A stretch of DNA of 64,000 bases from Proteus appendicitidis (GTDB taxonomy: Bacteria > Pseudomonadota > Gammaproteobacteria > Enterobacterales > Enterobacteriaceae). The notes under the pieces are model-generated. The model worked only from the letters and a program-made list of their open reading frames with translations, ran no database searches and was not told the origin of the DNA. The stretch's first letter is position 1; the number at the start of each line of letters is the position of its first letter. This document shows, piece after piece, positions 49,147 through 58,430 of the stretch. The DNA lies in contig NZ_CP127389.1 of NCBI RefSeq assembly GCF_030271835.1, forward strand, positions 682,001-746,000. The letters are read 5' to 3'. The position numbers and the translations under genes are program-made.

Positions 49147-49385
49147 GCCAGAAAGACACCATTATTCCTGATTATCGTCTAGATATGGTCGGTGAACCTT
49201 GTCCTTACCCTGCGGTGGCAACGCTTGAAGCTATGCCATCACTGAAAAAAGGCGAGATTTTAGAAGTGGTCAGTGATTGCCCTCAATCAATCAACAATAT
49301 TCCACTTGATGCTAAAAACTACGGTTATACCGTGTTAGATATTCAACAAGATGGTCCGACTATTCGTTATTTAATTCAAAAATAA
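49143..49385 (+). CDS. yedF: TusA-family sulfur carrier protein YedF
   Basis: The 80-residue cytoplasmic protein of the TusA/SirA family has the sulfur-relay cysteine in GEPCPYPAVATLEAMP. The rest (EILEVVSDCPQSINNIP, GYTVLDIQQDGPTIRYLIQK) is nearly that of E. coli YedF. It is probably the cytoplasmic acceptor of the sulfur or selenium species brought in by YedE, as TsuB is for TsuA. The role is inferred from the family and the pairing. Confidence 0.93.
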   Translation: MSQKDTIIPDYRLDMVGEPCPYPAVATLEAMPSLKKGEILEVVSDCPQSINNIPLDAKNYGYTVLDIQQDGPTIRYLIQK

Positions 49386-49404
49386 TCTTTATTTTTCATT
49401 AAAT

Positions 49405-49443
49405 AAAAAACAGCCTATACATGAGAATGATAGGCTGTTTTCT
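49405..49443. terminator. Bidirectional terminator between yedF and rdgC
   Basis: Arms aaaacagcctat and ataggctgtttt flank an 11-nt loop, with A and T runs outside. Confidence 0.85.
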
Positions 49444-49455
49444 TGAATAACATTA

Positions 49456-50364
49456 TTACTCTGCTTCGCCACCTAAGACTTCGGTGACGCGTTCAATTAA
49501 AGCGCTGAGTTCACCGGTCATTAAAATAAAGTCGGCATCAAAACGTTGGGCAAAATCGGCTTTATCGATATCATCATTTTGCTCACGCAAAGTTTCACTA
49601 AATTTAATGCGTTTGATAGAACCGTCATCACAAAGCATAAATTGCAGGCGATCTTCCCAATCTACAGAGAGTTTGGTAACAAATTTACCCGCTTCTATAT
49701 GTGTCGCAATTTCATCAGAAACTAATTCTTGTTTCTTACAACGAATCACGCCACCTTCATCTAGTACCGCTTTTAGTTCTGCTTCATCCATCAAGGTAAA
49801 ACCAGCAGGGAGTTCTCCAGAGCGTACCCACTCCGTCATTTTTAATTCAACGGATTCATTAAAGTTCAAAGGAACAACCGGTAACGAACCTAAGGTTTTA
49901 CGTAATAATGCTAGATTGTCTTCGGCACGTTTTGCGCTGCCTGAATCAACAATAACGAGTTGTTTTTCTAAATCGAGCCAAATAAACGTTTGTGAAAATT
50001 TACTAAAAGCCCGAGGAAGCAAAGTATGCACAACTTCATCTTTTAGAGTCGCTTTCTCTGTTTTTTTCAGTTTGCGCCCTTGTTCACCTTCAAGCTTTTC
50101 AACTTTATCTTGTAAGGCATTTTTAATTACAGTGGCAGGTAGGATTTTGTCTTCTTTTCGGGCGCAGATCATCACTTGCTTGCCAGCAACATGGATAAGC
50201 GCTTCACCGCGATCACCCATTGGCGAAACCCAACCTGTTTTGGTCATATCTTGGCTGCTACAAGGTGTGAATGCCAATGAAGCAAGCTGTTGTTCTAACT
50301 CATCCATTGACAGCGCTATCTCTTTATTTAAGCGATAGACCAAAATATTTTTAAACCACAGCAT
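49456..50364 (-). CDS. rdgC: Recombination-associated protein RdgC
   Basis: RdgC is a ring-forming nucleoid-associated DNA-binding protein that limits RecA activity. The 302 residues match E. coli (303): start [19 protein letters not shown], middle [19 protein letters not shown] and [17 protein letters not shown], end [21 protein letters not shown] ribosome binding site aagggga precedes the ATG. It is monocistronic and convergent with yedEF. Confidence 0.96.
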
Positions 50365-50598
50365 CTGACATTCCCCTTAATCATTATTTACCGCAATATG
50401 ATACTGAATGTTTAGGGTATCTAAAAGGTAATATCCCTTAAAAGAAAATCTATATGGTGTTATTGAATAAAAAGATAAAAAAAGCTGAAACGAATAATTA
50501 GTAAATCTACTCTATGATAATGCGTATTATTCTTATTTAAATTAAATTGATTAAGAATATTGATAATGAAATAACATGATTTTTAGCACAAGTCATTA

Positions 50599-50614
50599 TG
50601 TGACAATAATCACA
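50599..50614 (+). promoter_or_regulatory. CRP-like site 1
   Basis: tgtgacaataatcaca is a perfect match to the half-sites TGTGA-N6-TCACA. Confidence 0.7.
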
Positions 50615-50713
50615 AGATTTTATTTCCACACTGTTTTTTGTTTACAAACTGAAATCACTTTCAGATTTATCCCTGCATTAATTTACAAAACAAAAATATT
50701 CTTGACGCTCTAT

Positions 50714-50729
50714 TGTGATTATTATCACA
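50714..50729 (+). promoter_or_regulatory. CRP-like site 2
   Basis: tgtgattattatcaca is a perfect match to the half-sites TGTGA-N6-TCACA. Confidence 0.75.
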
Positions 50730-50770
50730 AAATAAGGAAAATATAGGGGTGAGTTTTTCACACTGAACGA

Positions 50771-50786
50771 AGTGATTAAGATCACA
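50771..50786 (+). promoter_or_regulatory. CRP-like site 3
   Basis: agtgattaagatcaca matches TGTGA-N6-TCACA with one mismatch, 57 bp after site 2. Confidence 0.6.
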
Positions 50787-51283
50787 AATATTGATCTTTT
50801 TTTTTCAAATATTGTTAAAAGAGCACAATTGGGCTTTTTATATTAACCATTGTAATAGTTTAGATTTTATAATGTTTCATTAGGTTTTGTTGTTACTTGT
50901 ACGTATTGATTAGATATTGTGATTGAATAGCATTCTTGTGCTCCTCTTTTTAATATTTACAGATAATTATTCTTTTTATGATGGCGTGTTACTCGTTACC
51001 ACTAGTTAAATTGTATTTAAATTCGACTTTGCCTTTATTTAAATAAGAAATAAATATAAAGATAAAAAATTATTAATTAGGAATAACAATATTTAAATCT
51101 TTAGTGTTATTTATTTAGTGGTTAAAATTAATACTTCCTTTTAAATATATTAAATAGGGGGATAAATTTTTTATTAGCAAAAAAAAGAGTCTTATAAAGA
51201 AATGAAATATAAAAGAAAAATCTAAAAATGCTATTTTTTAAAAGTTGATTAAGTTCAAAAAACACGTATCTTTACCTTTAATT

Positions 51284-51299
51284 GTGATACCTATCACTT
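51284..51299 (+). promoter_or_regulatory. CRP-like site 4
   Basis: tgtgatacctatcact matches TGTGA-N6-TCACA with one mismatch, about 400 bp before the porin start. Confidence 0.6.
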
Positions 51300-51692
51300 G
51301 GGCATGTAACCATGAAAATGCACATTGGTGTAATTGTGGGCTACATCACGAAAGCAGGGCTTTTTTTTGAGTAACATGCCTTCGAAAACTCAACAACCTA
51401 TTTCTTTTCCTAACAGAAATAAAAGCAATGCCCTTATTTAAATATAATGAGGATATTATTTTTGTGTCTTATTGGTGATTACGTCTGTGTCAAGGAAATT
51501 AAAACCTTTAAGAAGATTTTGTAGAGTCATAATTAGTAGCTATAAAAATTATCAATTGTGAGAGCGATTTTCTTTTTCGAAATTCGTGGCAGAGATCTTT
51601 TGTCTGAATCTCAGGTCAACTATATACGGCGGTATTATTTTTGACCTTAAAGAAAGTCATAAAACTATAGAAAATAGATGGGTATTTTAATC

Positions 51693-52886
51693 ATGAAAAG
51701 CTTGAAGCCTCTAGCAGCACTGGTTGGTTTGTTGGTTCTTTCTGGATCGGCAAACGCGGTAAACGTGTATAACGATAAAGGTACACGTTTTGATGTAAAT
51801 GGTCAGTTCCGTTTAAAAACACAAGTGACTAGCCAAAATCACGAAATGAAAATGACGGATGATGGTAGCCGTATCGGTTTCTTTGGCTCGCATGAACTGA
51901 CTAACGATATCAAAGTATTTGGTAAATTAGAGTGGGGTTCAGACACTCAAAAAACAAACAGTGACAACCCTAAATCAAACTTTGAAATGTACAACCGTGT
52001 GGGTTATGTCGGTTTCTCTCACCGTGATTATGGTCAAATCCAGTTTGGTCGTACTTATATTCCAATCGACTGGGTGAAAAAATCAAGCTACGGCTATGGT
52101 AACACTGGTGTGTTCTACTTTAGCGATGTATTAGGTCGCTCAGTAGGTTATTCTGGTGGTGAAACTAGTGTTAATGGTAAATATGTAAATACCAACGGTG
52201 TCGGTAAAAATAACTTTATGACCCGTTTACCACAAACTATTTTCTTAGAAACTAACCGTTACGAAGGCTTTAAATTAGCTGGTACTGTAACTGGTAAAAC
52301 AGGTGATGATGGTCGTCGTGTTGCAGGTGATATCACTCGTGCTTACTCATTAGTTGGTTTCTATAAATCAACTTTCGGCTTAGAGTTTGATGCGGGTTAT
52401 TCAGCAGCTAAAGGTGAAGCAAACAATACTGGACCAAATAAAGATAAAACACCTGAAAACAGTATTTTAGCTTTTGGTGCTGAATACTTCTTCCCAGGTC
52501 GTGAATTCTCTATCGGTTTAGACTATGGTCAATCTCGTGGTAAAAACCCAGGTTTAGCACTGTATTCAGACCAAGCTCCTCGTGGCTGGAACTCTGTTAA
52601 AGGCGACTGGAAAGCAGATTTATATGGTGTTGGTGTGAAATGGCACTGGGATCGTATCGAAAGTGGTATGTATGCGGGTTACTACCTGCGTGATGGCGAT
52701 GCCAATACATTCAACTACAAAAAAGAAACCTATACTATGGGTGTAGATAAACGTTTTGCTGTATCTAAATACAACAACTTACGTTTATTCGCTGAAGTTG
52801 CATATGATGATGCACGTAGCGAAAACCCGAAATATGAAGATAAAAAACAATATATCTTCGAAACTGGTATGCGTCTGTACTTCTAG
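51693..52886 (+). CDS. Outer-membrane porin of the OmpC/OmpF family
   Basis: This is a general-porin-type 16-strand barrel. The start is ATG 51693, giving the signal peptide MKSLKPLAALVGLLVLSGSA ending in NA before VNVYNDKG; an ATG at 51678 would add five residues. The 397 residues are longer than E. coli OmpF (362). Typical parts are RFDVNGQFRLK, DGSRIGFFGSHELT, QIQFGRTYIPIDW near loop 3 and a C-terminal phenylalanine (ETGMRLYF). It is the first gene of a set with cpdB, an RNase T2-like gene and a 5'-nucleotidase gene, suggesting entry of nucleotides or oligonucleotides. That link is inferred. Confidence 0.88.
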   Translation: MKSLKPLAALVGLLVLSGSANAVNVYNDKGTRFDVNGQFRLKTQVTSQNHEMKMTDDGSRIGFFGSHELTNDIKVFGKLEWGSDTQKTNSDNPKSNFEMYNRVGYVGFSHRDYGQIQFGRTYIPIDWVKKSSYGYGNTGVFYFSDVLGRSVGYSGGETSVNGKYVNTNGVGKNNFMTRLPQTIFLETNRYEGFKLAGTVTGKTGDDGRRVAGDITRAYSLVGFYKSTFGLEFDAGYSAAKGEANNTGPNKDKTPENSILAFGAEYFFPGREFSIGLDYGQSRGKNPGLALYSDQAPRGWNSVKGDWKADLYGVGVKWHWDRIESGMYAGYYLRDGDANTFNYKKETYTMGVDKRFAVSKYNNLRLFAEVAYDDARSENPKYEDKKQYIFETGMRLYF

Positions 52887-52924
52887 TCCTGACAAAAGCA
52901 TTACCGTTTGATAGAAGTAACCAA

Positions 52925-52946
52925 AGGAGAGCGATTTCGCTCTCCT
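52925..52946 (+). other. Intercistronic hairpin between the porin gene and cpdB
   Basis: A perfect 9-bp stem (aggagagcg / cgctctcct) with loop attt lies 40 bp after the porin stop and has no T-run. It may protect the porin message and leave partial read-through into cpdB. Confidence 0.5.
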
Positions 52947-52972
52947 GTTAACCAATATATAAGGGGTGTGTA

Positions 52973-54928
52973 ATGGTTAAGAATGTGTTGAAAATTTCAA
53001 CATTAGCAATGTTTGTCGCATTCAACGTGAATGCTGCGACAGTCGATCTTCGTATTATGGAGACGTCTGATGTTCACAGTAACTTAATCGACTTTGACTA
53101 CTTCAAAGACAAACCAACAGAACAGTTTGGTTATGTCCGTACTGCTAATTTAATTAAAGCAGCAAAAGCTGAAGCAACCAATGCGATTTTAGTTGATAAC
53201 GGCGACTTGATCCAAGGTAGCCCGCTGGCTGACTATCAAGCAGCTAAAGGCTTAGAAAAAGGCGAATCTCATCCAGCTCACCAGCTGATGAACACCATGG
53301 GCTACACAGTAGGTAACTTTGGTAACCATGAATTTAACTATGGTTTAGATTACCTGAAAAAAGCCATTGCCGGTGCTAAATTCCCTTACATCAACGCCAA
53401 CGTGATGGATGCGAAAACAGGCAAAAACTATTTCACACCTTATATCATTGTTGATACACCAGTAAAAGATCGTGATGGTAAAGAACACACTATCAAGATT
53501 GGTTATATCGGCTTCGTTCCACCACAGATCTTAATCTGGGATAAAGCCAATCTGGATGGTAAGGTCGTTGTAAACGATATTACAGAAACAGCGAAAAAAT
53601 TCGTCCCTCAAATGAAAAAAGAGGGTGCTGACCTGATTGTGGCTATTCCTCACTCTGGTTTTGCGTCAGAGCCGTACAAAGCAATGGCTGAAAACTCTGT
53701 TTATTATTTAAGTGAAGTTGAAGGCATCAATGCAATCATGTTTGGTCACGCTCATGGCGTATTCCCAAGCAAAGAATTTGAAGGCATTAAAGGTGTTGAT
53801 GTTGCTAAAGGTACTGTAAATGGCGTTCCTGCAGTTATGCCTGGCCAATGGGGTGATCACTTAGGTGTCGTTGATATGGTTATCAACAACGACAGCGGTA
53901 AATGGGTGATGACACAAGCAACAGGTGAAGCGCGTCCTATCTTTGATAAAGCAAACAAAAAAGCATTAGTTGAACGTGATGCTGAGTTAGCGCAAATCAT
54001 CGAAAAAGCACACCAAGGCACCCGTGATTTCGTGGGTAAACACATTGGTAAAGCTTCTGCCAACATGTACAGCTTCTTAGCATTAGTACAAAGCGATCCA
54101 ACTGTACAAATCGTGAATGATGCACAAGTTGATTACACCAAACACTTTATTCAAGGTGATCCGAACTTAGACGGTTTACCAGTATTAGGTGCAGCTGCGC
54201 CATTTAAAGCGGGTGGTCGTAAAAATGCACCAGCAGACTTCGTCGAAGTTGAAAAAGGTGACTTAACATTCCGTAACGCGGCAGACTTATATCTGTATCC
54301 AAACACATTAGTGGTTGTTAAAGCGACCGGTGCTGATGTTGTTGAGTGGTTAGAATGTTCAGCAGGTATGTGGAACCAAGTTGATCCTAACTCAACTAAA
54401 CCACAAGAACTGATCAACTGGGATGGTTTCCGTACTTATAACTTCGACACTATTAGTGGTGTGAACTATAAAGTTGACTTAACTCAACCAGCTAAATATG
54501 ACGTTGATTGCCAAGTCGTTAATAAAGATGCGAACCGTATCAAAGAAGTGACTTATGAAGGCAAACCAATCGATCCTAAAGCAACATTCCTGATCGCAAC
54601 CAATAACTATCGTGGATACGGCGGTAAGTTTGCAGGTACTGGTGAAGCCAATATTGCGTTTGCATCTCCAGATGAAAACCGTGCAATCTTAGCTTCTTAC
54701 ATTGCTAAACAAACGAAAGAAAAAGGCGAAGTTGCAACTAAAGCAGCTAACAACTGGTCATTCTTACCTATTAAGACTGACAAAGCATTAGATGTACGTT
54801 TTGAAACTTCTCCAAGTGAAAAAGCGGCTGCATTTATTAAAGATTTCTCTCAATATCCAATGACCTTTGTGGAAAATGATGAAATCGGTTTTGCAATTTA
54901 CAAAATTGATTTAACTGAGAAGAAATAA
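52973..54928 (+). CDS. cpdB: Periplasmic 2',3'-cyclic-nucleotide phosphodiesterase / 3'-nucleotidase
   Basis: CpdB converts 2',3'-cyclic nucleotides to 3'-nucleotides and then to nucleosides and phosphate. The 651-residue precursor (E. coli 647) has a signal peptide ending NVNA. The metallophosphatase domain shows [35 protein letters not shown] and [10 protein letters not shown]. The C-terminal nucleotidase domain has the substrate motif [10 protein letters not shown] ribosome binding site aagggg precedes ATG 52973. Its products and substrates link it to the RNase T2-like gene just downstream, which makes 2',3'-cyclic ends. Confidence 0.95.
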
Positions 54929-54937
54929 GCTATTAAG

Positions 54938-54962
54938 CCTGCCCATTCAGGGCAGGTTTTTC
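54938..54962 (+). terminator. Intrinsic terminator between cpdB and the RNase gene
   Basis: Stem cctgccc / gggcagg with loop attca is followed by ttttt, 10 bp after the cpdB stop. The next gene starts 50 bp later, so it may be partly read through or the RNase gene may have its own promoter (ttgaac at 54971 is a possible -35). Confidence 0.85.
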
Positions 54963-55013
54963 TTACCTTTTTGAACCAAGAGAGTAAAACTTATTGCTCT
55001 TTAAGGGGATTTT

Positions 55014-55790
55014 ATGCGCTTTATGAAGCTATTACCTGCAGCTTTTGCTTTAGTGCTAGCAGGATGTGCAACGCAAGCACCTGAAATTACAGAACCATTA
55101 AAACCTCAAGCTAAATTAGTTGAAGGCGTATCTTGTATTTTGCCTGATGCGCCAACAGCACCTTACGACTACATTGCTTCTAATGATCGCTATGGCCAAA
55201 ATAGCACAGCATCGACAGATTACTTTAAGTTAGCGATTAACTACTCACCGGCTTTTTGTGATTATAAAAGTAATAACATTAAACGTTTAAATAACGATAA
55301 TGAAAAAGATCGTGCAAAACGTGAGTACGATAAATTTGAAATCCAGTGTTTCTCTGATAACAAATTTGGCTGGATAGTTCATGGGCTGTGGGCTGAAACC
55401 TGTGATGGTAAATCATGGGAAGAGTGCCGTGATTGGAAAGACATACGCAAGCATCCTCGTCTATGTAAAGGCGATTTACCACCTTTAGAATACTCTGCTA
55501 TCAAACCTTATCTGTGTGATTCTCCGGGTATCGACTTACTGCAAGGTGAGTGGGAAAAACATGGTGTGTGTGCTTTTGATACACCAGATGCATTCTTTGG
55601 TAAACAAAAAGAGTTGTATGAAGCGTTAGTATTACCAGAAGGCCGTCCTTCAAACAGTGCATTGATTAAGTTCTTAAAAGAACACAATCCATCACTGAAG
55701 GATAAAGAAATTCAAATTAATCGAGATGAATTCTATATCTGTTATAGCAAAGATTTCGAAGTAATTGATTGTCCGAAACGTGAATTTTGA
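55014..55790 (+). CDS. Ribonuclease T2-family lipoprotein (RNase I type)
   Basis: The 258-residue enzyme should cut RNA through 2',3'-cyclic phosphate intermediates in the envelope. The N-terminus has a lipobox (LVLAGC, cysteine near residue 18), so it is probably membrane-anchored rather than soluble like E. coli RNase I. The two conserved active-site segments are present: GWIVHGLWAETC (CAS I, catalytic His) and EWEKHGVCA (CAS II, catalytic Glu, Lys and His). Several cysteines suggest disulfides. ATG 55014 follows aaggggatttt; ATG 55023 is possible. It lies between two periplasmic nucleotidase genes. Confidence 0.88.
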   Translation: MRFMKLLPAAFALVLAGCATQAPEITEPLKPQAKLVEGVSCILPDAPTAPYDYIASNDRYGQNSTASTDYFKLAINYSPAFCDYKSNNIKRLNNDNEKDRAKREYDKFEIQCFSDNKFGWIVHGLWAETCDGKSWEECRDWKDIRKHPRLCKGDLPPLEYSAIKPYLCDSPGIDLLQGEWEKHGVCAFDTPDAFFGKQKELYEALVLPEGRPSNSALIKFLKEHNPSLKDKEIQINRDEFYICYSKDFEVIDCPKREF

Positions 55791-55809
55791 TCTTAGGGAT
55801 AAATTTTAA

Positions 55810-57432
55810 ATGAACCATAAATATAAACTCGTTGCACTAGCGGTAAGCTCTGTCTTATTAGCGGGTTGTGCAAAGAACTACGACGAAGCTAATGTTGTTG
55901 ATGTGCGTGTTATCGCAATGAACGACTTCCACGGTGCGCTAAAAGCGCCAGGTCCAAACAAACCTGGTGGCATCGAGCATATGGCAACATTAATCAAAGA
56001 AATGAAGAAAGATAACCCGAACAACATCGTTGTTGCCGCGGGTGACATGGTCGGTGCAAGCCCTCTGTTATCTTCAATGTTCCATGATGAGCCTTCTATC
56101 GAAGCATTATCATTAGCAGGCTTAGAAGCAACTTCTGTGGGTAACCACGAATTTGATAAAGGCATGGGCGAGTTACTGCGTAAGCAAAACGGTGGCTGCC
56201 ATCCAGTGACAGGTTGCCAAGGTCCAACTGAATTTAAAGGGGCTGATTTCCAATACTTATCAGCAAACGTAACTGTTAATGAAACAGGCAAAACGTTATT
56301 CCCTGAATATGTTATCAAAGAATTTAACGGTATCCCTGTTGCCTTTATTGGTGTCACTCTAGAAGGTACTGCTGCAATCGTAACGCCTAAAGGTACTGAA
56401 GGTTTAAGCTTCCATAACGAAGCAAAAACCATCAATGCATTAGTGCCTCAGTTAAAAGCACAAGGTGTTCAAGCGATTGGTGTATTAATTCACGAAGGCG
56501 CTGCACAACGTCGTGACGGTGGTCCTGTGAATATCAACGCATGTAATGGTATTACGGGCAAAGTTCTGGGTGTTGTTGAGCAATTAGATCCAGCGATTGA
56601 TTTCGTTGTAACAGGTCACACTCACCAAGCTTACAACTGTACAATTAACGGACGTTCAGTAACATCAGCGCAATCAAACGGTGCAATGTTAACGCGTATC
56701 GACCTGAAATTAGACAAAACAACAAAAGATGTTGTTGATGTTGAAGCACGTAATATTTGGGTTGATAACCGCAAATATGAAAAAGATCCAGCCGTTACCA
56801 AACTGTTAGAAGCTTACGAAAAAATCGCAACCCCATTAGCTAACCGTATTATCGGTAAGTTAGAAGGTAATTTAACTAAGCAAACTAACGATGCGGGTGA
56901 GTCTGCACTGGGTCAAGTGATTGCTGATGCGCATTTATACACTGCAAAACCAAAAGATATGGGTGGCGCACAAATCGCATTTATGAACAGCGGTGGTATT
57001 CGTGCTGATATGACAGGTGGCGATGTTTCTTATAACGCAATCTACACTGTACAGCCATTCTCTAACGTACTGTTAACTCAAACATTAACAGGTGAGCAAA
57101 TCAAACGCCTGTTAGAGCAACAATGGGATCGTTCACGTCCACAAGTGTTAGCGATTTCAGGTAACTTCCAGTACACATGGGATAGCAAAGCATCTAATGG
57201 TAACCGTGTTATCGTTGAATCAATGAAAATTGATGGCAAACCAGTAGATATGAAAGCGAATTACCGTGTTGTGGCTAACGAATACTTAGCAACGGGTGGT
57301 AGTAACTTCTCTGTACTGAAAGAAGGTAAAGATCCAGTTTACAGCGTGCCAGATGTTGATGCAGTCGTGAAATACTTTGCTGAGCAATCTCCTGTTGCTC
57401 AACCAAAAGCGAATAACATCACACGTAAATAA
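55810..57432 (+). CDS. 5'-nucleotidase-family lipoprotein (UshA-like)
   Basis: The 540-residue protein of the 5'-nucleotidase/metallophosphatase family should hydrolyse nucleoside monophosphates in the envelope. The signal ends in a lipobox (VLLAGC, cysteine near residue 20). The metal site is shown by IAMNDFHGAL, VAAGDMVGASPLL, VGNHEFDKG and TGHTHQAYN. The C-terminal domain has FMNSGGIRADMTGG and YLATGGSNF. UshA of E. coli is a soluble 550-residue periplasmic protein; this version is lipidated. It follows the RNase gene by 19 bp, so the two are cotranscribed. Confidence 0.9.
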   Translation: MNHKYKLVALAVSSVLLAGCAKNYDEANVVDVRVIAMNDFHGALKAPGPNKPGGIEHMATLIKEMKKDNPNNIVVAAGDMVGASPLLSSMFHDEPSIEALSLAGLEATSVGNHEFDKGMGELLRKQNGGCHPVTGCQGPTEFKGADFQYLSANVTVNETGKTLFPEYVIKEFNGIPVAFIGVTLEGTAAIVTPKGTEGLSFHNEAKTINALVPQLKAQGVQAIGVLIHEGAAQRRDGGPVNINACNGITGKVLGVVEQLDPAIDFVVTGHTHQAYNCTINGRSVTSAQSNGAMLTRIDLKLDKTTKDVVDVEARNIWVDNRKYEKDPAVTKLLEAYEKIATPLANRIIGKLEGNLTKQTNDAGESALGQVIADAHLYTAKPKDMGGAQIAFMNSGGIRADMTGGDVSYNAIYTVQPFSNVLLTQTLTGEQIKRLLEQQWDRSRPQVLAISGNFQYTWDSKASNGNRVIVESMKIDGKPVDMKANYRVVANEYLATGGSNFSVLKEGKDPVYSVPDVDAVVKYFAEQSPVAQPKANNITRK

Positions 57433-57493
57433 CGTATTTTCATACGCCTTGTGAAAATCGCACCTCTTATGGGAGGTGCGTAAATAAATAAAG

Positions 57494-57562
57494 AGAGCAA
57501 AGTGTTGAACACAAAGGGTCCATCCCTACCTTTGTATTCATTACGCACTTTGCTCTTTTTTT
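57494..57562 (+). terminator. Two-tier terminator after the nucleotidase operon
   Basis: An outer 11-bp stem (agagcaaagtg / cactttgctct) encloses an inner stem (acaaagg / cctttgt) and ends in a run of T. It is unusually long for an intrinsic terminator. Confidence 0.85.
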
Positions 57563-57684
57563 ATGTTTTTTATTCACCAATATGTGGGAATAAACATAAG
57601 AGTTAACGCCTTTACAATGGGTAGTTTGTGGTGTATTGTGTTATTTTGCGACAAAAGATTGCATTTTGTCGTCATTATAAAGAT

Positions 57685-57729
57685 CTAAACTTATAACGTT
57701 TTAATGTTATCAAGTTCTAAAGTTATAAC
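57685..57729 (+). promoter_or_regulatory. Direct repeats in the toxin-antitoxin promoter
   Basis: ctaaacttataac (57685) and ctaaagttataac (57717) are near-identical direct repeats 32 bp apart. Between them gttatcaag forms an imperfect inverted repeat with cttataac. They are good candidates for antitoxin (ribbon-helix-helix) binding sites giving autorepression. Confidence 0.55.
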
Positions 57730-57754
57730 TGCCGTGAGGCTTGGAGTGTAAGTA

Positions 57755-57985
57755 ATGGCTATTTCCGTAAGATTAGATGAAGACTTTGTGTCTGATGCTA
57801 AAATTCATGCGGAAGCGAAAAGCAGAAGTGTTCCTAAACAAATTGAACACTGGGCTAAAATAGGGCGTATAGCTGAAGATAACCCTGATCTGCCATATAG
57901 CTTTATCGAAGAATTGTTACTGGCACAGGCGGAAGTCGAAAACAAAAAGGTTTCTCGATATGTCCGAACCACAAAAAGAGATTGA
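57755..57985 (+). CDS. ParD-like antitoxin (ribbon-helix-helix type)
   Basis: The 76-residue protein begins MAISVRLDEDFVSDAKIHAE, a strand-helix pattern expected of a ribbon-helix-helix DNA-binding domain, with SVPKQIEHWAKIGRIAEDNP resembling the ParD-like antitoxin family. The C-terminal part should wrap the toxin. A ribosome binding site ttggag lies 8 bp before ATG 57755. It overlaps the toxin gene by 26 bp, as usual for coupled type II pairs. Confidence 0.8.
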   Translation: MAISVRLDEDFVSDAKIHAEAKSRSVPKQIEHWAKIGRIAEDNPDLPYSFIEELLLAQAEVENKKVSRYVRTTKRD

Positions 57986-58283
57986 TGTTTATCAGTCAGC
58001 TCGATTTGAAAAGGCAATGAAAAAGTTGCCTGAATCAGATGTGAAAATTATTGAAGATGAAATTGATCAAATAATTGATAATCCATTGATTGGTGAACAG
58101 AAAAAAGGCGATCTTGCTTATCTCAGAGTACACAAATTTAGGCTTAATGAGCTGACTGTACTACTCGGCTATTCATGGGTCGCCAACAAAGTTGAACTGT
58201 ATTTACTGCATATCGGTTCCCATGAAAATTTCTATGATGCTCAGAAAAAACAGCGAAAGGCTGATCTGAAACTGATTAAGTAA
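57960..58283 (+). CDS. RelE/ParE-superfamily toxin
   Basis: The 107-residue basic protein includes YQSARFEKAMKKLPESDVKI, GDLAYLRVHKFRLNELTVLL and GYSWVANKVELYLLHIGSHE. The last two match the typical ParE/RelE fold of an Arg-rich strand followed by a hydrophobic strand and a G(S/P)HENFY end. RelE-type toxins cut mRNA on the ribosome and ParE-type toxins poison gyrase; the sequence alone does not decide. It is translated after the overlapping antitoxin and followed by a terminator. Confidence 0.78.
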   Translation: MSEPQKEIDVYQSARFEKAMKKLPESDVKIIEDEIDQIIDNPLIGEQKKGDLAYLRVHKFRLNELTVLLGYSWVANKVELYLLHIGSHENFYDAQKKQRKADLKLIK

Positions 58284-58287
58284 TAAA

Positions 58288-58320
58288 AGAGTGGTGGCAT
58301 AAGGTCACCACTCTTTTTTT
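58288..58320 (+). terminator. Intrinsic terminator after the toxin gene
   Basis: Stem agagtggtg / caccactct is followed by seven T residues. Confidence 0.9.
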
Positions 58321-58333
58321 ATGGATATGTAAT

Positions 58334-58360
58334 AAAAAAAAGCCCACAGTGGCTGTGGGC
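58334..58360 (-). terminator. Terminator of the nitroreductase gene
   Basis: On the minus strand gcccacag / ctgtgggc with loop cca is followed by a run of eight T, 70 bp after the nitroreductase stop. Confidence 0.88.
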
Positions 58361-58430
58361 AAGGAATGAAAGTAAAGAAAGAGGGTATTACTTATTGCTA
58401 GGGTCTTTTGTCAGATGTCTGTTCTAACTC

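Follow-up and report, generated by a model that had tools for sequence, protein, structure and literature searches.

A conserved porin, cpdB, RNase T2 and 5'-nucleotidase cluster of Proteus that may use RNA as food at the cell envelope

A 64,000-nucleotide stretch of the Proteus appendicitidis genome (contig NZ_CP127389.1, positions 682,001 to 746,000), referred to here as the window, carries four consecutive genes on its plus strand, all of them intact as open reading frames. An earlier note on this DNA had recognized the set as a porin, CpdB, an RNase T2 and a 5'-nucleotidase, and the reading frames and family matches agree with it. In coordinates of the window, the genes are:

51693-52886, plus strand: divergent general porin, 397 residues (another in-frame ATG is open upstream at 51678)
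52973-54928, plus strand: cpdB, 2',3'-cyclic-nucleotide phosphodiesterase/3'-nucleotidase, assigned by NCBIfam equivalog models
55014-55790, plus strand: RNase T2, predicted lipoprotein, 258 residues, assigned by the Ribonuclease_T2 family and a lipobox
55810-57432, plus strand: 5'-nucleotidase, predicted lipoprotein, 540 residues, starting 19 nucleotides past RNase T2

That these genes stand side by side behind a switch resembling the type found at nucleoside genes suggests that they make RNA available as food at the envelope. Both the expression of the cluster and its use for RNA are what we infer from the sequence.

CpdB is a clear, full-length equivalog, scoring 1109.8 bits with NF006938 (cut-off 486) and 1067.7 bits with TIGR01390 (cut-off 883). 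The RNase T2 matches PF00445 (Ribonuclease_T2) at 33.8 bits against a cut-off of 26, and is predicted to be active, with catalytic motifs H123GLW and EWEKH183G that do not vary among the 16 sequences aligned. It is the sole RNase T2 found in its genome. Both domains of a 5'-nucleotidase are present in the fourth protein (5_nucleotid_C, 138.6 bits, cut-off 23.6; Metallophos, 34.2 bits, cut-off 21.5). Its identification as UshA is rejected by NCBIfam (NF007109, 167.3 bits against a cut-off of 600), and a separate UshA gene lies elsewhere in the genome. The porin matches Porin_1 at 41.5 bits (cut-off 23.7) and its model has the general-porin barrel fold, whereas the NCBIfam models for OmpC and OmpF score far under their cut-offs. 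It is distant from OmpC and OmpF; a search of 5.8 billion proteins, restricted to relatives with short words in common, listed 21, and those with names are from Proteus or Xenorhabdus.

The two downstream enzymes had also been credited with lipoboxes, and the LAGC motif can be read directly in both (VLAGC-ATQ in RNase T2, LLAGC-AKN in the 5'-nucleotidase). The N-termini of CpdB and the porin have no lipobox. Residue +2 is Ala rather than Asp in both lipobox proteins, which predicts outer-membrane lipoproteins. The lipobox cysteine of RNase T2 is kept in all eight aligned rows that are at least 61% identical. Among the seven relatives of the 5'-nucleotidase that were read, its cysteine is kept in 5 of 5 from Xenorhabdus, Photorhabdus and Providencia, and is lacking in a Bradyrhizobium protein.

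The same enzyme families are known from the periplasm of Escherichia coli as the products of rna, cpdB and ushA, and the available part of one report describes the products of RNase I as substrates that periplasmic CpdB would hydrolyse (PMC9958556). As the earlier note had said, the E. coli genes are scattered (in MG1655, rna at 644-645 kb, ushA at 505-507 kb and cpdB at 4.435-4.437 Mb), whereas here they are clustered. Moreover, the RNase T2 and 5'-nucleotidase of the cluster differ from the E. coli set in being predicted lipoproteins. The RNase T2 has no NCBIfam match and no sequence match to RNase I in PDB at an E value of 0.001; its structural model points to E. coli RNase 1 (2pqy) with an E value of 5.8e-4, so the two appear to be related by fold only.

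An RNase T2 match occurs in all 20 genomes of the genus, that of the window included, and in each of them cpdB lies upstream and the 5'-nucleotidase gene downstream on the same strand. In all four genes, the ratio of nonsynonymous to synonymous substitution rates (dN/dS) lies in the range 0.02-0.10 when the window is compared with P. mirabilis or P. hauseri, these being the two comparisons quoted because the remaining ones are saturated or nearly so at synonymous sites. Given the constant order and these ratios, the cluster is not a chance arrangement. A plasmid origin is not supported: among the matches listed, 14 of 272 cpdB-like records of a plasmid collection reach at least 60% identity, of which two are P. 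mirabilis records of 4.1 Mb and 12 come from other enterobacteria at 60-80%.

The gene order was also followed in named loci, which are the best 80 of 560 relatives, the nearest of them belonging to Proteus species; they were retrieved through the RNase T2 alignment and thus contain RNase T2 by construction. Of these, 24 belong to Morganellaceae (nine Proteus, five Xenorhabdus, nine Photorhabdus and one Moellerella), and cpdB directly precedes RNase T2 in all 24. A full-length porin is present in 9/9 Proteus, 4/5 Xenorhabdus, 0/9 Photorhabdus and 0/1 Moellerella loci, and a full-length 5'-nucleotidase adjoins RNase T2 in 9/9, 4/5, 1/9 and 0/1, respectively. All four genes occur together in the nine Proteus loci and in four of the five from Xenorhabdus. 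Thus, the gene-order search proposed in the earlier note bears out the set in these two genera, while the porin and 5'-nucleotidase are mostly lost from Photorhabdus and Moellerella. Every Photorhabdus locus retains a piece of the 3' end of the porin gene, a further one has a 5'-nucleotidase copy with a large internal loss, and the single Moellerella locus consists of cpdB and RNase T2 alone. These losses amount to a natural dissection in which cpdB and RNase T2 are kept and the porin and 5'-nucleotidase are lost. A 72% identical 5'-nucleotidase gene (L164) on another contig of a Photorhabdus genome without the cluster copy (G250) is either a relocated or a separate copy.

Outside Morganellaceae, none of 56 RNase T2 loci, which include many from Pasteurellaceae and Janthinobacterium, has a cpdB or 5'-nucleotidase match (E value 1e-5) in the flank examined, several of these flanks being short. 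Two genomes of another genus of the family (g13) have cpdB next to rdgC; both lack RNase T2 altogether, and the flank examined contains no porin. In three genomes of a further genus (g90, probably Providencia, judging by protein identity), the 5'-nucleotidase gene is unlinked, and nfsB lies beyond cpdB in two of three flanks. Among 295 genomes drawn evenly from the family as defined by GTDB, seven have a match to RNase T2 and 165 to the CpdB query, although the latter include matches that are weak and UshA-like.

The retention of cpdB and RNase T2 as a core in Photorhabdus and Moellerella, among loci that were retrieved through RNase T2, is what might be expected if the two enzymes control signals. 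RNase T2 and CpdB could determine how much 2',3'-cyclic nucleotide is present in the envelope, or CpdB could remove cyclic dinucleotides, with nutrition being secondary. In the available part of the source, 2',3'-cyclic nucleotides are proposed as bacterial signals and CpdB is stated to hydrolyse cyclic dinucleotides (PMC9958556). However, signal control leaves unexplained both the porin and 5'-nucleotidase of Proteus and Xenorhabdus and a promoter geometry that resembles that of deoC (below), and we regard it as decidedly improbable.

The region upstream of the porin gene contains the following features:

51283-51298, plus strand: first CRP site of the proximal pair, farther from the inferred start, with its centre at about -93.5
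51305-51309, plus strand: TGTAA, a weak candidate CytR half-site, from the column consensus of three genera
51335-51350, plus strand: second CRP site of the proximal pair, nearer to the inferred start, with its centre at -41.5
51372-51377, plus strand: inferred -10 element TAACAT, 29.5 bp from the CRP centre
50599-50614, no strand assigned: perfect CRP site TGTGACAATAATCACA of a distal cluster, with at most one mismatch in 9/9 named Proteus loci
50714-50729, no strand assigned: perfect CRP site TGTGATTATTATCACA of the distal cluster, perfect in 9/9 named Proteus loci
50771-50786, no strand assigned: CRP site of the distal cluster by sequence match, with one mismatch, 57 bp past the preceding one

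Five CRP sites thus lie in the 1.3-kb gap before the porin gene, four of them with no more than one mismatch and the fifth with two. Only five sites with at most one mismatch are found in the whole window, and four of them fall in this region; shuffled versions of the region contain a mean of 0.036 and a maximum of 2 (n = 2000). Perfect CRP palindromes number 16 in the 4.1-Mb genome, two of which are here (the reversed-pattern control gives 3).

The spacing of the proximal pair is exactly 52 bp in 19 of the 24 named Morganellaceae loci, distributed over three genera (9/9 Proteus in addition to the window, 4/5 Xenorhabdus, 6/9 Photorhabdus and 0/1 Moellerella, which has a single CRP site 312 bp before cpdB). 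A -10-like element lies 29.5 bp from the CRP centre in the window and in all four Xenorhabdus loci examined (TACTAT or TATTAT), and TATTAT is found at this distance in three of six Photorhabdus pairs. Because of this distance, the nearer CRP site is assigned the centre -41.5; this is the position expected of a class II site, relative to a start near 51384 that is itself placed from the -10-like element and would give a 5' leader of about 309 nucleotides. The alignment of the control region comprises 13 loci and the window.

When spacings of 51-53 are allowed, the genome of the window has just one other pair of this pattern, which lies upstream of deoC; the reversed control matches once. The deoC pair lies between deoC and nupC, and the deo promoter of this genome has the same CRP spacing as the cluster. 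The region upstream of E. coli deoC, used as a positive control, contains a 53-bp pair of weaker sites that agree at 8 of 10 positions each. In the numbering of deoP2, the CRP sites are centred at -41.5 and -93.5.

The available part of a study of the CytR regulon describes its promoters (deoP2, udp, nupG and tsx) as having two CRP sites at a conserved distance on either side of the CytR site, and gives 30-31 bp between the CRP sites of udp (PMC3454398). The corresponding distance here is 36 bp between 16-bp cores, which by our conversion becomes 30 bp if sites of 22 bp are meant. The main text of that study contains no mention of cpdB, a porin, a nucleotidase or a ribonuclease, and it took E. 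coli genes as the starting point in looking for new members (PMC3454398). The genome of the window encodes CytR (NF008269, 631 bits against a cut-off of 436). Between the CRP sites, 10 of 36 spacer columns are common to the consensuses of Proteus, Xenorhabdus and Photorhabdus, and five adjacent ones form the TGTAA, from which one Photorhabdus row (L034) differs. This motif resembles TTGTAA in the spacer of E. coli deoC, which contains CTTGTAAG. Unlike the CytR sites of the known regulon, it is a candidate only, and should be taken as a lead rather than as proof. A Channel_Tsx family match in the genome has the NCBIfam name "hypothetical protein" and is not called Tsx here.

All three enzymes can end in the release of phosphate, and the locus could therefore serve mainly to free phosphate from RNA and nucleotides. 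With one consensus and up to four mismatches, no Pho-box-like site was found in 50365-54972 or ahead of any of the four genes, and this search thus does not place them in the Pho regulon; its two matches over 49301-58400 fall within rdgC and past the end of the cluster. The absence of a Pho box leaves room for a phosphate role, because Salmonella ushA2 acts independently of PhoB, supporting growth with nucleotides as the sole phosphorus source according to the available part of a report (PMC10715179). However, what the control region does have is the conserved CRP pair, which points to CRP and perhaps CytR, and thus to carbon and nucleoside control, not to phosphate. We consider phosphate scavenging unlikely as the main purpose; the likely role is use of RNA and nucleotides as a source of carbon and energy, tied to nucleoside catabolism.

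Three hairpins bear on the structure of the transcripts:

52925-52946, plus strand: intercistronic hairpin AGGAGAGC...GCTCTCCT without a U-run, by folding (z -4.5 over the 86-nucleotide porin-cpdB spacer)
54935-54965, plus strand: hairpin resembling an intrinsic terminator in the cpdB-RNase T2 spacer, by folding (z -4.4)
57490-57564, plus strand: terminator-like hairpin and U-run past the 5'-nucleotidase gene, by folding (z -5.0)

The porin-cpdB hairpin is present in Proteus, and its counterparts in Xenorhabdus and Photorhabdus are weaker. In the window, the hairpin after cpdB is GC-rich with a trailing U-run, and a hairpin with at least five T in the next eight bases is found at this position in 8/9 named Proteus, 9/9 Photorhabdus, 1/5 Xenorhabdus and 0/1 Moellerella loci. 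This conservation does not sit well with the single four-gene operon that had originally been suggested. Porin and cpdB are probably on one transcript; RNase T2 and the 5'-nucleotidase, by virtue of the terminator-like hairpin, would require read-through or a promoter of their own. The simplest structure would be two pairs, porin-cpdB and RNase T2-5'-nucleotidase, joined by partial, graded read-through.

A scan for promoters and terminators listed neither the cpdB-RNase T2 hairpin nor the final terminator, both of which rest on folding, probably because their stems run into the U-run or their loops are long. Covariation is weak, with changes on both sides in 0 of 8 pairs of the cpdB-RNase T2 hairpin and 1 of 4 pairs of the porin-cpdB hairpin (alignments of 15 of the 24 loci and the window, with no Xenorhabdus, and of 14 of the 24 loci and the window, respectively). 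No known RNA element was identified: Rfam (E value up to 1) gave one sub-threshold small-RNA match at 54891-54971 (27.9 bits against a gathering score of 99), which we take for the cpdB terminator hairpin.

The terminator-like hairpin, together with the unequal loss of genes between genera, would also fit four envelope genes that are used independently and are neighbours by common descent, with CRP acting on the porin only. Some porins are indeed controlled by CRP. However, the CRP pair is retained in six of nine Photorhabdus loci in which the porin is a remnant, and there it more likely serves cpdB, from which it is now about 0.8 kb away because of the loss of the porin. In addition, RNase T2 ends so close before the 5'-nucleotidase gene, and cpdB is absent from the examined flanks of RNase T2 loci outside the group, that we find mere neighbourhood quite unlikely.

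We therefore favour, with a probability of about 0.6, an envelope locus that uses RNA and nucleotides as food, activated by cyclic AMP and CRP when better carbon is short and probably repressed by CytR until nucleosides are present. RNase T2, anchored to the outer membrane, would cleave RNA, yielding 2',3'-cyclic nucleotides along with short fragments, and the porin would admit nucleotides or short oligonucleotides to the periplasm. CpdB would then open the cyclic phosphate and take off the resulting 3' phosphate, while the 5'-nucleotidase would clear 5'-nucleotides. Nucleosides might enter the cytoplasm through a NupC-type transporter, whose gene is beside deoC, and be consumed by the deo pathway. 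Transcription of the RNase T2-5'-nucleotidase pair would depend on some polymerase passing the cpdB terminator or on a separate promoter. RNA should be plentiful in the gut, in infected tissue and in dead insects, where such bacteria live, and to our knowledge its use as bacterial food has been little described compared with that of DNA.

Several observations weigh against RNA use under nucleoside control. Adjacency inside one family can persist through common descent, and the terminator after cpdB speaks against one transcript. A general porin should not admit long RNA, and RNase T2 may face either side of the outer membrane. The 5'-nucleotidase may be partly redundant, since UshA is encoded elsewhere. 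The TGTAA is short, and the deoC spacer of the same genome has a far better CytR-like sequence. The 52-bp pair is absent from Photorhabdus asymbiotica, P. khanii, P. tasmaniensis, Xenorhabdus szentirmaii and Moellerella, and the -10-like hexamer is off the exact distance in three of six Photorhabdus pairs. Finally, the Pho box was sought with a single consensus.

A bolder version, which we hold to be possible but doubtful, is that the cluster is devoted to RNA feeding at the outer envelope and, under a CRP-CytR cassette, joins the CytR regulon as a member not known before. Nucleoside sensing would then open a private porin and its enzymes, two of them anchored, which would digest RNA outside the inner membrane, and CytR would govern every stage between external RNA and the catabolism of pentoses. 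If RNA use under this control is correct, a known switch ties RNA degradation in the envelope to nucleoside catabolism within one clustered locus, and the CytR regulon extends from nucleoside uptake to the polymer. The enzyme kinds and regulators are known; what appears to be new is the control region, with its testable regulatory prediction, in a conserved and little-noticed cluster. Neither the cluster nor its control was found described among the papers listed from the literature searched, which left out most subscription papers, and no paper joining RNase T2 with cpdB, or Proteus mirabilis with cpdB and a porin, was found there.

Like the cluster, the NadN/Hel/AphA set of Haemophilus uses envelope enzymes to convert nucleotides to nucleosides, and one of its enzymes is anchored to the outer membrane (PMC10694654). 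It differs in consisting of other enzymes, in having no RNase or porin, and in that cyclic AMP acts directly on the enzymes, as far as the available part of that report describes it (PMC10694654).

No gene starts at 50599, where the earlier note began the locus; a perfect CRP site opens with this base, 1.1 kb ahead of the porin. The distal CRP cluster that begins there (50599-50786) lies 0.9-1.1 kb before the porin gene and 0.2-0.4 kb before rdgC, and is conserved in Proteus; it may act on rdgC, on an unseen RNA or on the porin. Its third site has at most one mismatch in 8/9 named Proteus loci and two in the remaining one (L025). The inferred leader (51384-51692) contains stretches common to Proteus and Xenorhabdus, such as GCGATTTTCTTTT, and has no Rfam match. 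Inspection of the alignment by eye shows a second inverted repeat at 54978-55002, just before the ribosome site of RNase T2, and a repeat of other sequence at a roughly equivalent position in Photorhabdus; the consensus fold does not contain it. A ParE-like toxin gene (PF15781, 57960-58283) follows the cluster, with a small reading frame immediately before it; three of the nine named Proteus loci (L026, L027 and L047) have no match to the toxin gene.

The porin of the cluster shares with OpnS of Xenorhabdus a position beside rdgC, and OpnS had been considered as a possible name for it. According to the available part of a report, X. poinarii carries tetR and opnS in the interval from exbD to rdgC (PMC4079199). 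On the far side of rdgC, the locus of X. khoisanae (L033) has a TetR-type gene followed by a complete Porin_1 protein (411.8 bits). Because a TetR-type gene and a porin stand there in the reported order, this far-side protein is the candidate for OpnS and the porin of the cluster is another; the name is thus rejected for the latter by position. A second porin is present on the other side of rdgC in all five Xenorhabdus loci (L033, L035, L043, L045 and L046), and is 24-27% identical where aligned.

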